Of a stretch of DNA of 64,000 nucleotides, positions 45,918 to 52,970 are shown piece by piece. Both the position numbers and the translations under genes were made by a program. The notes under the pieces are model-generated. The model was not told where the DNA came from, ran no database searches, and saw nothing but the letters and a program-made list of their open reading frames with translations. Each line of letters starts with the position of its first letter. The stretch's first letter is position 1. The stretch comes from Craspedostauros australis (lineage: Eukaryota; Bacillariophyta; Bacillariophyceae; Mastogloiales; Achnanthaceae): positions 49,183 to 113,182 of the forward strand of contig JAMXDE010000082.1 of assembly GCA_026770025.1 (NCBI GenBank), in the 5' to 3' direction.

Positions 45918-45921
45918 TTAA
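45918..45921. repeat. TTAA target duplication, left
   Basis: TTAA directly precedes the left inverted repeat (GAGCCAGATT) and is matched by TTAA at 45918-equivalent position 51945-51948 on the right. Confidence 0.75.
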
Positions 45922-46078
45922 GAGCCAGATTAGTGAGTCGACCTGCACTTTGTTATGGGACTCAAGAACATTTTTCTTGTAGATCTAAACCAAGTACATA
46001 TTCGTAATCCTCGTAGTCTCCATATAAATAATTAACCGTTACATTTTTTGTTAGACCTTTATTTTAAGTTTTATGGAC
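45922..46078 (+). repeat. Left terminal inverted repeat
   Basis: 157 bp, starting GAGCCAGATTAGTGAGTCG and ending in TTTTAAGTTTTATGGAC. It pairs with 51788-51944. Confidence 0.8.
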
Positions 46079-46469
46079 AGTCAAACAACTGCTGAAGTCA
46101 CATGGGTCGAACCCCATGAAACTCCTACTTGTTTCCCAGAAAGTTCTATTGTGTTCTTGTTTATTTATCGGCGGGTGGTCAGTCACGAGGGCGCTCCCGA
46201 ACGTGTCGTTCGTTGGGTACGCGTTAAATACACGTTAGCATGTGCCGCATGATCTCACATTTTGCTCGTCACAACACACATGACACAAAACACATCACAC
46301 AAAACACATCATCGGCATCTGTTCACAAAATCAAACATCATCGCCACACTTTCGCTCCATTTCACAACTTGCCTCGCCAATGCCACGCGTACTCGCTCTT
46401 GTGTGCCATGCTAGTGCTCATCCTTGTAGTAGTAGTAGTCTTAGTAGTTGTTGTTGTTGTTGTCAATGA

Positions 46470-47465
46470 ATGGTGGCCTTTCATTGTATGCTCTCCTTCC
46501 TCACTTCATCTCAACCTGTGCAGTTCATCATCTCCGACCAGCTAACAACTATACTCTCCAGCAACAACTACACCATGTCTACCTCTACCACTGCCAAGGC
46601 CCACTCCAAGGATTCTAACCCCTCTCCCAGTAAGAAACCGTGTTGGACTCACCCTGCATCTACTCCTCCCTTCGATTCGAAGGGGTTCCTGCTGCCTACT
46701 GCAGAGCAACTGTTGCCTGACAAGCCATCCGCTGCGTTGAGGAAGCCGACCACCATCACGCAAGTGATCGATGTGAAGCCAATGCTTGCAGCGGATGGCA
46801 GCCTCGTCCCGAACAGTACGCATGCGCACGCTCGCGTGCTGCATGTGTTCGTTCACATCCTCGATGACAACGGAGGCGTCTTCGACGACTCCAATGTCAG
46901 GGTGCGATCCGAGGGACGAGGTGTCGGCGATAGAGCAGTGGTGAGCGTTATCGTGAACGCGCCACCCCCTGCTGCGCCTGATGTTGCACCGCCTGTCGAG
47001 CCTGCCCCACCAGCCAGGCTCCCTCGTCGCTGCAATGCTGTTGTTGCTGGTGGCTACGCAGACACCTCCAATGACAGCGACACCACCTACGACGAAAACG
47101 ACAGGGGGGAACGAACGCGCGCCAGCAGGAACAAGAGAGGAGGTCAGTTCGGGTACAATCCGGAGGAGGGGGAGAACTGGAGGCGCCCTGCTGTGATTCG
47201 CGTCATGGAGGAGCTCACCAATCACTTCGACATGAACGTGTTTATTCCCATGCCTCCCACGGGATTCGTGCTTGGCAGCAAGGATGATAGGCCAACATGG
47301 TGGAACTTGACACGCGTGTGGGTAACTGTAGCGACTGCGCTCTGGGGTGTCTTGCTCCCTCAGGAGGAGTTGCCAACTCGTCAGATGAAACAGGTGGTGG
47401 GGTTTGTCCGCGCTCGCGTGGACCTGCCGCCGCCTGCGCTCGGTTCAAATCTGTACACCCTGTGT
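46470..47465 (+). pseudogene. Transposase-like gene, N-terminal part before a frameshift
   Basis: The frame is open from ATG 46470; ATG 46575 (ACACCATGTCT) is the likelier start. The N-terminus is Ser/Pro/Lys-rich and then Ala/Pro-rich, with an Asp-rich basic stretch near 47080-47140. After about 47460 the frame loses protein-like character, while another frame (2 bp shifted) takes over. The switch falls in CTGTGTGTGAG at about 47459-47469. One extra GT there explains the shift. Function of this part is unknown; it may bind DNA ends. Confidence 0.6.
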
Positions 47466-50095
47466 GTGAGGGGGAGAAGACACTTGCTAACGTGGCGAGA
47501 GCCGTTCTCGCTGCATCAACGTCACGTAACAATGTCACTGCAATCCTGTCTCGTCACGTGGAGACTCTTCCGGAGGAACAACGTATTCATGTCGAGCCTG
47601 CACGCGCCGCTAACACAAGGAGTCAACTCACAACGCTGCGACGCGCCTTTGGCATTTTCAGCTGCGGCGGAATTATTCCGCCAAAGGTTCTCCAGTACCG
47701 TGTGCGTGCTTGCGACCTGTCTGGTGTGACGTCGTTTCTCATGACCACTGCAACATACAAGGCAGGTTTGAGTCACACGGTGCAGTATGGTGGTGTCAAA
47801 TTCGAAAATGTTCCAGTGTTCGATCGCGGAAGCACCACCATCCGAGACTTATTCAACATGTACTCATCTACGACTAACAACCCAGTGGGAATGCCTGCGT
47901 TCACCCTCATGACTAACCTGCTCACACGCAAAAGCAAGATCAAGACAGGGCTTTCTTCCTTTGAGAGTTACTTCTGGATGGCGATGGAGAAACTCAAACA
48001 GGCAATTTCGCGCCTAGTAGATCTGCTGAAGGCTAAGTATGAAGCGGACAGGGAGGAGAACAACGATGACGCTGTGGATGCCAATGACAACAGCGACCAC
48101 AAGAATGATGATCCCAATGACGTCATCGCACAGCATGTGCGCACAGCCGATTCCCTCTTGCATGCACTCGAGCTGCTTGTCGTGTTCCTCAAATGGGAAT
48201 TCACCGCGTCCCACATGCAGCTTGAGTGTGACGATCCCATGCATTCGGCCGCGTTCGCTCTCACCAAAAAGGAGAAGAAGAAGGCAACATCCACATCAAG
48301 CAATCAACGCAAACCACGCACCAACAAGCACAAGTGCAAGAACAACACCGCTGTCACAAACGTCACTCCAGCCATCACAAATGACATTCCTGTGACCACC
48401 GCAAGTGAACAATCACGTAAAGTATGCAACCGTTGTGGCGCTGCAATGCAATTTGTGGATGATCGTTTTGTCCCTTTTGTCACAATGCTTAAGGACAATG
48501 AACTCACAGAACACAAAGACGAATTGCAATCAATGCTTGCGGCAGCGCCGGGATTCGCTGATGAAATCATTAACTACATGGCTCACAAAGTGCGTGCAAA
48601 AGTTCAATTCAGACAAATCGCCCGTTATCAATCCGAACTCAACAACAACGACAAAAGAGCCTATGTGGTACTCGACCATAAGCAAAAAATTCTACCGACA
48701 GGCCAAGGCGAAGCCCAACAAGAATATTGGGGGAAGAAGGGAATGTCACTGCTTGGGGCAATGGTCATCACGTGTCGCAATGACATTTTTACTTATCGGT
48801 TCATGGACATTGTGGTCGATGGAAGACCAATGCAAGACACACTTCAAGTTGGTGGACTGCTGGAGATCGTGCAAAAAAAGGTCAAAGTCATGCTTCCATC
48901 CGTGACTGAAATCATCCTACAGAGCGATAACGCGTGTTGCTTTGCCAGTCACGAGCACATCGCGCTCATTACGTCCAAGCTCAACAAGAACCTTGTGGGA
49001 CGAAACGCGGCCAAAATCATCGTGTGGATCTACACAGAGGCCCAAACCGGTAAGAGCATGCTGGACACCCACTTCGCGTACATCACCCGTGTACTGCGAA
49101 AATACGTGCAAAGTGGACACGACATCAAGACCCCGTTCCAAGTCTTCCTCGCGCTCCAAGCCGGTGACATCGCGGGTACCACCACGGTACTGGTCGACGC
49201 AGAGACCCTTGAAGGCAACATCACGACGTTACCGGGCGCACCAAAAAGACGATTCCGCGCAAGTGGGCAACAAGTACGTCAGACTCACGAGGTGAAGTAT
49301 GATGATGACCAGGCGCGGTTGGTGGCTGCATCTGGCATCACGGAAGACGTCGTTGTGAAGAGCGCTGAATGGGAAGGGTGGACGATCAACGAGTTGGGTG
49401 CGGTTGCTGTCCACACGCACATGTCCGACAAGCTGCCGATCACGTCCGAATCGTCCAGGAAGACGGACAAGACGCGCAAAATGGGTCGCACAGCGACAGA
49501 GAGCAAGGCGTTCGTGATTGGCAAAGCCCTTCAAGACGGACAACAACATCTACCATCCGATCACACCACAGCACTACAAGACCAGACCGCGGAAACAGAA
49601 CATCCACCACTCGCAGTGCCCGGCTGGGCAAGCAAAACAACACGGACCAACGCCAAACTACCAGACTACATCGCGGACAAGTTGAAGGACATCTGTGAAG
49701 CTTCCGCGAAGGACCCGAAAAACAGGCCATCGGAGCACGAAGCACACGAGAAACTGATGAACAACGCAAGAACCAAAACTGACTGGTACGTACAACTGCA
49801 CGCAAATCCCATGCGCGTGAAAGCGTCGCTGTTTGCAGCATACAACGCCAAACAACGCAAACAAAAGAAGGAGGCTGCCCTCATCAAGATAGAAACCAAG
49901 ACAACAAGCAAAGCAACAGCATCTGCAGTCGTGGTGACCCACAATGCGCCAGCTGCAACAGAGGAGGAACAAGTCGAACAAGATTTGCAGAGAGAGGAAG
50001 AGGAATTCGACCATCAGATGTGGTGTGATGCGCACACCATGAAGGCGAACAGGGAAAGTGAGGCCATGTTGGATGACGAGAAGCAAATTTTGTGA
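47466..50095 (+). pseudogene. Transposase-like protein, C-terminal part with candidate DDE/D core
   Basis: This frame, open from 47297, is convincing from about 47466 onwards. It has a lone C-x2-C (VCNRCGAAM, near 48424), then a conserved-looking core: VVLDHKQK with Asp at codon 48674, IILQSDNACCF with Asp at 48926, and TEAQTGKSMLDTHFAY with Asp near 49064. The spacing is about 83 and 45 residues. The SDNA-C and GK-x-x-L-D pattern recalls an uncharacterised group of RNase H-fold transposase-like proteins known from animals and protists (memory only). A Glu-rich coiled tail ends the protein. It is separated from its N-terminus by the GT duplication. Confidence 0.55.
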
Positions 50096-51787
50096 TGGGT
50101 GTGCTTCGCCGCGACAACACGAGTTGTGGAGTTTTGTGGGTGATGGGTCGTGATACGTAGACTAATGTAGAGCCCACCCAAAAACCATCCAAACATCTGC
50201 TTATCATGCTATATCTCAACAACACATCATTTGTATTCAAATCTAAACAGTGCATTCATACTCCTGACTATAGGTTATACAGAATATCAAGGTTAAATTG
50301 ACATAGAAATTATTTTTGTTGTCATGTTGGTCCACCACACAGTTGTGTGGTGGATTCACAAAAAAAAATGATCAAACCATGTTGCCCTCCACTCAGCACC
50401 CATGATCATCATCATCCTCCTGTTATTTTGGCAAACTGTGCCCCACAATAGCTCTTTATACCCCCCATCTATCCGCCCCACGAAGGACAGAACGTTTCTG
50501 CCACATTGCATACCCAAATGTGTCCATACACTGAAAAGAGCGCTTTTGAAAAAACGATTGCAATCCGGATGCGGTATGGATACAGATCCATACCTCATTC
50601 ACATGATCCTTTCAGCCCCTCCACGTGCCCCTCGTGCATTCCCACACTCCCTGGCGACATGCCGATGTATTCAGAATGGGCTGGGTGTGGAGGGTACCGA
50701 TGGTACACCTCCATTTGGTGATGCCCTTGTGTTTTGGGTGCCCCACCAAAAAAATGGGCTGTCTGCACTCATTCGATGCCGCAGCCTCTTCCAGACAGTA
50801 TCTGCAGCGCAGACTTCGTCACGAGCATCTTCAGGTGATGTCGCACGCATCTTGTATGGGTTACTTGGCGATTGGGCAGCTTGATGATGCTGCCCCCTCA
50901 CTGCCAAAGCCACATGATGGGTACGCCACGACCCACCCAACAAAACTCTTGCCCTCCACCTTTTGTTCTGCGCGGATGCATTCCCAGTCCTCCCCGAGCT
51001 TGAAACTTCGTGGGCGCCTTGATGGCGACCTCCTGGATGCGTCTTGACCCTCCAAATGTGTTGGTGTGGGCTGTGCATGGAGTACACAGGCCACATCCAA
51101 CGAGCCAATCTGCGGCCAAATTGCGACGTTTGCACGGAGGCCTGCCGCGGCCCCAAATCAACCGCTCTCGCAGCCTCCGCTCGTCCACCCACCAAGGGTT
51201 GCATCGCGGTGACGGCGATGTGCTTGGATGTTGCTTTGGACCGTTGGTTGGTGCGGCGCTGAGGATGCCGTTGGGCGACCATTGTGGAGTTTTTTTTGTG
51301 TTCCGCCAGCGTCATCTTGTTGTGTCGAGTTCGGCACTCTCGGCCGGTCGGACATCCTAGGGGTTGAGGTAATTATCAACATTGCAACGAATGTACGAAA
51401 AAAGGATGACACAAACCACTTCGGGAGTACCAATGCAACTCGACCATTCCATCACGACAAAACGTAGCTGATGCTGCTTCACATCGTGCTGTGATTGGTG
51501 GTTTATGACGCAGCAGCCAGTTTGGTGACGTAGATGACGGATTAGAGCAACAAAGGATAGAATGTATGTAAACGTGCACTCACCGCTTCTCCCAAAACTC
51601 TACAACCGGTGCTATCGTGGATGGACTGTTGGATGGTCTCATTGGAACACCTCAAAAAGAGACTGAACAATTCAAAATGGGAACAAACTCGCAGAAACAA
51701 AGAACAGCAACGCGTTAACTTGGATCGATGTAGTCGGAAGAAAAAGGCTGAGTCCCTAAAGCAGTCTAAAAATGCGCACATTGATGA
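50096..51787. other. 3' region of the TTAA transposon
   Basis: A perfect hairpin with a 10-bp stem (TCCACCACAC/GTGTGGTGGA, loop AGTT) lies at 50331-50354 and is followed by a run of nine A at 50360-50368. A minus-strand frame at 50861-51100 encodes about 79 residues with a protein-like middle (KLGEDWECIRAEQKVEGKS). Overlapping frames are open as well, so I do not call a gene. The rest shows nothing recognisable. Confidence 0.35.
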
Positions 51788-51944
51788 GTCCATAAAACTT
51801 AAAATAGGATCTAACTTAAAAATGTAATGGTTAATTATTTATATGAAGATTACGAGGATTACGCATATGTACGTTGTTTTGATATCTGAGACGAAAGCTC
51901 TTGAGTCCCATAACAAAGTGCAGGTCGACTCACTAATCTGGCTC
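51788..51944 (-). repeat. Right terminal inverted repeat
   Basis: 157 bp, the inverted partner of 45922-46078. It ends AATCTGGCTC and is followed by TTAA at 51945-51948. Confidence 0.8.
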
Positions 51945-51990
51945 TTAATCCCGTCCAGTCGTGCGAAAACCGAACCCTTGATTTTAATAG

Positions 51991-52063
51991 CCGTCATTCG
52001 ATTTTTTATCCGTCATTCGATTTTTTTATCCGTCACTCGATTTAATTATCCGTTGTTCGATTT
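51991..52063. repeat. Short tandem cluster, ATCCGTCATTCGATTT type, copy 1
   Basis: About four units of a 17-18 bp motif with core CCGTCATTCGATTT, separated by short T/A spacers. A second cluster of the same motif, in the same orientation, is at 52891-52970. Confidence 0.75.
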
Positions 52064-52890
52064 ATCTAGTTATCAATCCATTGTCTTCACGGGACACCAT
52101 TGACACTACCGGACTAGTTCGACTAAACGAGGTTCTCGTCACATCGCGATTGATGAAACGGAAACAGACCAACAGACCACGAATACAAAGACGGGGCTTG
52201 GTGAGAGCAACACTTGATGCTCCCGCGCTCGTTTCGGATGGCCAAGCCAGGCAAGACCACTCCACAACATCAAGTATCAACGTAGTGTAGCGAACGCGAT
52301 ACAAATGCAATACACACCGATGCACGCATGTGTTGCATCCTACATCGCTTTAGACCAGTGTGATGTCATGCTCATTTCGTCTGTTCTGCACTTGGTTTTG
52401 CGGTATCAGTGAAGGTGTCTCTTTGTTCGAAGGGTAGTCACATTGTATTTCTCTGTGCATTGCTCACAAATCCTGCCGTTCGCCACAAACAATCGCCATG
52501 AGATTCCCCCCGCCCCACGCTTCCTCCTTCCAACAAAGCAAAGCCGCTGGCACGAGCGGCAGCCATACCATTCCAATGGCTCTCTCCCGCTCCTCTTCTT
52601 CCAATACAGCACCAAATGGACAACAGATCAGAACTCTTCAAGGTTGACCACGAAGTCTTTGCACAGTCTGCTTCACATTTATATAATTGTAACCAAAATA
52701 AAACGTATAATAGACAATAACACTCCAACTCCACACTCGTCTCTGTTGTGATCCGTCCAGAGCAGGGCAGAGTCGAGGAGAGCCACCATTTCGTGGTTTG
52801 CTTGTGTGACCCATTGCACTTGATTAGTTCGATCACTTGCCGGCCTTGTTTTCTTGGGTCACGAGTGACAAACTTGTGCGACTTATTTAT
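52064..52890. other. Unassigned stretch between the two tandem clusters
   Basis: No gene is supported. Short open frames occur on both strands; none has recognisable motifs. Confidence 0.3.
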
Positions 52891-52970
52891 CCGTCATTCG
52901 ATTTTAATATCCGTCATTCGATTTATTTATCCGTCACTCGATTTATTTATCCGTCATTCGATTTATTTAG
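52891..52970. repeat. Short tandem cluster, copy 2
   Basis: Four units of the same CCGTCATTCGATTT core as at 51991-52063, about 0.8 kb away and in the same direction. Confidence 0.75.

Follow-up and report, generated by a model that had tools for sequence, protein, structure and literature searches.

What kind of transposon occupies positions 45918–51948 of the window (the whole stretch of 64,000 nucleotides analysed here), and what does it recognize as its target? A preliminary description, made from the sequence alone, had noted equal inverted repeats bordered by TTAA and enclosing one large gene, and had left the choice between a divergent Kolobok relative and a separate lineage. We searched the 74.8-Mb assembly that holds the window (90 contigs; the window lies within contig C80) for further copies and compared their ends, flanks and proteins. 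The segment is very probably a copy, broken by a frameshift, of a large family of autonomous DNA transposons that move by cut-and-paste, were active recently and most likely inhabit a diatom.

Terminal repeats and tips

The two terminal inverted repeats, each of 157 bp, lie at 45922–46078 on the forward strand and at 51788–51944 on the reverse strand. They align over 131 nt ungapped with 89% complementarity, and an ungapped count from the ends finds 132 of the 157 positions identical between the two arms. Outside each arm stands a TTAA (45918–45921 on the left, 51945–51948 on the right), and this comparison bears out the repeats as they had been described. A 5' leader (46079–46574, forward strand) connects the left repeat to the reading frame.

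The left repeat has at least 40 scored matches in the assembly (from 291 candidates at first look), and ten full-length copies besides the window copy, L009–L018, were fetched; full-length elements measure 6,008–6,081 bp. The ends at 45922 and 51944 recur in the related copies, and the termini are 5'-GA...TC-3' across the family, the exception in both respects being L018, in which the right end is changed. All of the 40 left ends examined start with GAGCC, continue with five differing bases and then enter the box AGTGAGTCGACCTGCA, the window copy itself beginning GAGCC-AGATT-AGTGAGTCGACCTGCA. The five-base segment occurs as AGATT, CGATC, CCCCG, GCCTT, AACTT or CCCTT, and the box is followed by CT save in two loci (L079 and L086). 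These tip types are not clade-specific, since in a tree of the family proteins CGATC and CCCCG are each found with two transposase clades and a single clade carries both GCCTT and AACTT. The inner AGTGAGTCGACCTGCA box is likely the site bound by the transposase.

Target site and duplication

An exact 4-bp duplication, with the match extending no further, brackets 10 of the 11 full-length copies, the window copy included; L018 is again the exception. The duplicated tetramers of these ten copies are TTAA, TTAT, CTAT, TTAG, GTAT and CTAG. Left flanks read NTAN in 28 out of 28 cases, four of them TTAA, in a sample that joins the ten clean copies with L018 and 17 additional left flanks, L066 being omitted as it is the opposite side of L016. 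A further 12 left flanks from other loci, partly of further subfamilies, are likewise all NTAN and none is TTAA, which brings all insertion flanks together to 40/40 for NTAN and 4/40 for TTAA. Given that TA accounts for 2.8% of the dinucleotides in the window, 28 such flanks out of 28 would be expected by chance with a probability of about 3e-44. What the flanks read played no part in the choice of loci, which were picked by their repeats or by a protein match. The TTAA beside the window copy is therefore to be read as one case of NTAN, and TTAA has to be given up as the target of the family.

The window insertion sits inside another repeat, and for this reason its joined flanks find 12 or more further places that align across the junction with 82–95% identity. 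In five of the six places that were fetched the sequence is GATTTAATCCCG, where TTAA stands once and the element is missing, and the sixth has TAAA where the others have TTAA. These empty sites directly show the target, the duplication and the ends of the element. As NTAN constrains the site less than TTAA does, the family could show how a DDD enzyme manages with a TA core.

As for the surrounding multi-copy repeat itself, both in the window (51980–52063 and 52879–52969) and in its paralogues it includes a 20-bp tandem unit whose sequence is close to CGATTTATTTATCCGTCATT.

Copies in the genome and recent movement

Open frames of 1,177 aa or more occur in at least 56 copies besides that of the window, counted as 47 and 9 in two non-overlapping sets. 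The former belong to the 49 scored protein matches (573 candidates), among which 47 can be read through for 1,180 aa or more; the two others are the window copy and a copy with a TAG. The latter belong to the ten fetched full-length copies, which are absent from that list and of which nine are open over 1177–1217 aa and one (L009) is broken. Protein identity is 81–92% between subfamilies and 95–100% between copies within one subfamily. At the upper extreme, L016 shares 99.98% identity with L017 along 6 kb, yet the two bear different duplications (TTAT and CTAG), and L013 and L015 are 99.93% identical, again with differing duplications. Since near-identical copies sit at different duplications, transposition of the family is recent. 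With dozens of intact and partly near-identical copies in one genome, the transposon may still be moving, and it could possibly be put to use as a gene-delivery tool for diatoms.

Two copies have additional family ends close by: a second end lies 233 bp past the right end of L016 (position 6366), and a partial one about 130 bp to the left of L078 (near position 1). Either clustering or nested insertion would account for these.

Silicon transporters point to a silica-forming alga as the host, most likely a diatom. Their model, PF03842, finds 88 matches in the genome (for instance on contig C2 at 977655–1028778, and on C9, C61 and C24); 32 of them cover almost the full length of the model, 28 of these 32 being free of inner stops; among 14 control genomes, one gave a match, below the cut-off. 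The diatom host that had been proposed earlier is thereby supported. The transporter set, counted in this one genome, gives the impression of being unusually large for a diatom. A full-length frame for such a transporter lies about 450 bp from the end of one transposon copy (contig C2, 1026561–1028778).

The transposase gene

When aligned by tblastn to the protein of the intact copy L014, the transposase frame of the window falls into two forward-strand parts: 46575–47486, corresponding to residues 1–305, and 47450–50095, which includes the stop and of which 47450–50092 corresponds to residues 293–1166. Accordingly, a single frame change lies between 47450 and 47486, either a mutation or an assembly error, and the two open frames of the window copy encode 419 and 932 aa. 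Intact copies encode one protein of about 1,170 aa. The single large gene seen in the preliminary description is real in the intact copies, where it is intronless, but it is not the frame 47466–50095 alone, as it begins at 46575 and in the window contains one frame change. As read, the window copy would make no whole transposase and could be moved only in trans by intact copies.

When six proteins, each representing a subfamily, are compared pairwise, dN/dS lies between 0.20 and 0.27 in 15 of 15 pairs. In blocks of 100 columns it is 0.12–0.17 in the three that contain the presumed catalytic core, 0.14 in one block upstream of the core and 0.19–0.38 in the others; because the upstream block, at about residue 339, reaches 0.14, low values are not specific to the core. 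Judging by these codon comparisons, the intact transposase is under purifying selection. Downstream of the stop there follows a stretch of 1.7 kb (50096–51787) with no supported gene: identity between subfamilies is about 92 and 85% in its first two 150-column blocks and then drops to about 65–73%. The longest reverse-strand frame in it varies from 181 to 383 aa across 12 loci (181 in L039 and 186 in L011), and a second gene finds no support here, the DNA being mostly 65–73% alike between subfamilies.

Presumed catalytic core

Conserved acidic residues were sought among 37 full ORFs, namely the 40 loci L009–L048 minus the broken L009, L019 and L036. In L014 numbering, the presumed catalytic triad consists of D690 (codon 48674–48676 on the forward strand, as are all the following; Asp in 37/37), D774 (48926–48928; Asp in 34 and Asn in 3) and D820 (49064–49066; 37/37), with the invariant Glu811 (49037–49039; 37/37) as an alternative third acidic residue. 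The three Asn residues at position 774 occur in the intact ORFs of L011, L043 and L044, which belong to three subfamilies; each time GAT has become AAT after a C, i.e., at a CpG, and the recurrence of this change fits repeated CpG decay.

A single-sequence AlphaFold model of 212 residues, encoded by the window's own positions 48641–49276, reached a mean pLDDT of 51 and a pTM of 0.47; that of a longer stretch of 326 residues (pLDDT 38) was not good enough to be used. In the shorter model the main elements follow one another as strand, short helix, strand, strand, helix, strand, helices, strand, helix. In this low-confidence model the Asp of the VLDHKQK motif (D690) closes strand 1, the Asp of QSDNACC (D774) lies just past strand 4, the Glu of YTEAQ (Glu811) is found where strand 5 ends, and D820, the Asp of SMLD, is inside the helix that follows. 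Such an order of strands and helices, with acidic residues so placed, fits the way in which the RNase H-like core of DDE/D transposases is built. Foldseek, run with the model against PDB and BFVD, gave no match at E<=0.001. Its top PDB rows, an acetyl-CoA carboxylase and a metallo-beta-lactamase, are not nucleases of the RNase H-like fold, and we draw no claim from some lower rows with proteins that have RNase H-like domains (polymerases, Argonautes and an arenavirus nucleoprotein), as their scores are no better. From the conserved residues and their placement in the model, we infer an RNase H-like catalytic domain with the DDD triad D690, D774 and D820.

Proposed mechanism

In the mechanism that we propose, this DDD domain would catalyse the reaction, with E811 in place of D820 as the alternative third residue. 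The transposase would bind the inner box at both ends, excise the element and join it to the target by a 4-nt staggered cut centred on TA; repair of the resulting gaps would then create the 4-bp duplication. On this scheme, the family probably consists of DDD transposons that move by cut-and-paste, the usual route for eukaryotic elements with terminal inverted repeats. The same DDD transposon might instead move by copy-out/paste-in, without excision, which would sit well with the many copies in the genome. However, nothing specific points either way, and with cut-and-paste being the usual route among such eukaryotic elements, we consider copy-out unlikely and retain cut-and-paste as the preferred mode of movement.

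Sequence searches with the transposase

The impression of an unfamiliar transposase was upheld by the searches. Pfam yielded no match above chance for the frames of the window or for two intact proteins, and among 15 family members none had a significant match, six families appearing at E 0.06–0.4 and none of these being a transposase. Likewise, NCBIfam gave no match for the protein, PHROGs nothing better than a tail fibre at E 0.07, and PDB searched by sequence no significant match (best profile E 0.17). The domain DUF7869 (PF25273), a possible comparator, had no match in the genome and none in the controls either. The spacing D-x3-K-x-L-P-x4-E-x6-G-K-K/R-G-I/M-S resembles transposase-like proteins of cnidarians and oomycetes, a likeness that may serve as a lead.

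In the collection of viral contigs, a single-protein query found no pattern match for relatives, a family-alignment query found 143, none of which was confirmed by tblastn, and degenerate motif patterns found none. No relatives emerged from the phage collection by tblastn, and three places in the genome contig collection were judged to be chance, with tblastn alignments of at most 24 residues and a best E of 0.08. As these collections are viral and prokaryotic, the lack of relatives in them says little about eukaryotes. In the titles and abstract beginnings of the open-licence literature, we found no description of an NTAN-targeting diatom transposon.

The family might form an unnamed superfamily of its own among the DDD/E transposons, with NTAN as its target, which we regard as rather unlikely. 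For it speak the lack of significant matches in Pfam (0/15), NCBIfam, PHROGs and PDB by sequence, and the way in which NTAN sites, GAGCC tips and so large a protein (about 1,170 aa) occur together. On the other hand, a HMMER search is less sensitive than a profile-profile search, it is doubtful that Pfam covers every Repbase superfamily, and the comparison covered these four databases and viral and prokaryotic collections. The fuller version of this proposal, a separate eukaryotic DDD superfamily that recognizes NTAN, encodes a protein of this size, has modular tips (GAGCC, five variable nucleotides, AGTGAGTCGACCTGCA) and is now spreading in a diatom, appears a shade more doubtful still.

Comparison with known superfamilies

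We leave the family unassigned among the superfamilies, and the leading guess, Sola, is best seen against the others with similar targets. The piggyBac superfamily has in common with the family the 4-bp duplication and the TTAA that flanks the window copy, and its transposases have a DDD triad, as is presumed here. Nevertheless, TTAA is found at only 4 of 40 sites, and DDE_Tnp_1_7 (PF13843) matches none of the 15 members while matching 160 times in the same genome as a positive control, in agreement with the earlier judgement that the protein is not a piggyBac transposase. An hhalign comparison of the family with three piggyBac proteins of the genome, a weak and insensitive test with shallow profiles (Neff 1.2), gave a probability of 0.2%. 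A relationship to piggyBac is thus extremely improbable. Several of the 160 piggyBac-model matches lie in long open frames, and because such matches are many, two kinds of transposons with 4-bp targets may coexist in this genome.

Kolobok elements, in the available part of PMC9587614, have TTAA duplications and termini that obey a 5'-RR...YY-3' rule, are recorded in the diatom Fragilariopsis cylindrus and share a C/DxxH signature with hAT, P, MuDR and Dada. The 4-bp duplications and GA...TC termini of our family agree with this; in contrast, its target is NTAN, with TTAA at only 4 of 40 sites, and C/DxxH is absent between Asp774 and Asp820 in the L014 protein. The tie to Kolobok that TTAA had suggested is not supported, and a divergent Kolobok is very unlikely.

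Two further superfamilies differ in the length of the duplication, which is 4 bp in the family. PIF/Harbinger elements create a 3-bp TNA duplication (PMC12477816, available part) and were rejected. Tc1/mariner elements share the TA at the centre of the target but duplicate 2 bp, and were likewise rejected.

The Sola superfamily comprises three groups (Sola1, Sola2 and Sola3), which are unlike in termini and target preference. According to the available part of PMC10741241, Sola elements have a DDD transposase, 4-bp duplications, lengths of mostly 2–9 kb and terminal inverted repeats of 11–1124 bp. The family resembles them in its 4-bp duplications (10/11 full-length copies), its element length of about 6 kb and its 157-bp repeats fall within these ranges, and its presumed DDD triad (D690, D774 and D820 in 37, 34 and 37 of 37, suitably placed in the low-confidence model) would agree as well; Sola-1 is recorded in the brown alga Ectocarpus (the available part of PMC12477816). 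The likeness covers duplication, lengths and the presumed triad, whereas what defines the superfamily is similarity of the transposases. A diatom branch of Sola is the best fit and our leading guess, with a chance that we would put at somewhat less than even. Should the transposase prove not to be of the Sola type, the family would add one more lineage to the eukaryotic transposase superfamilies.
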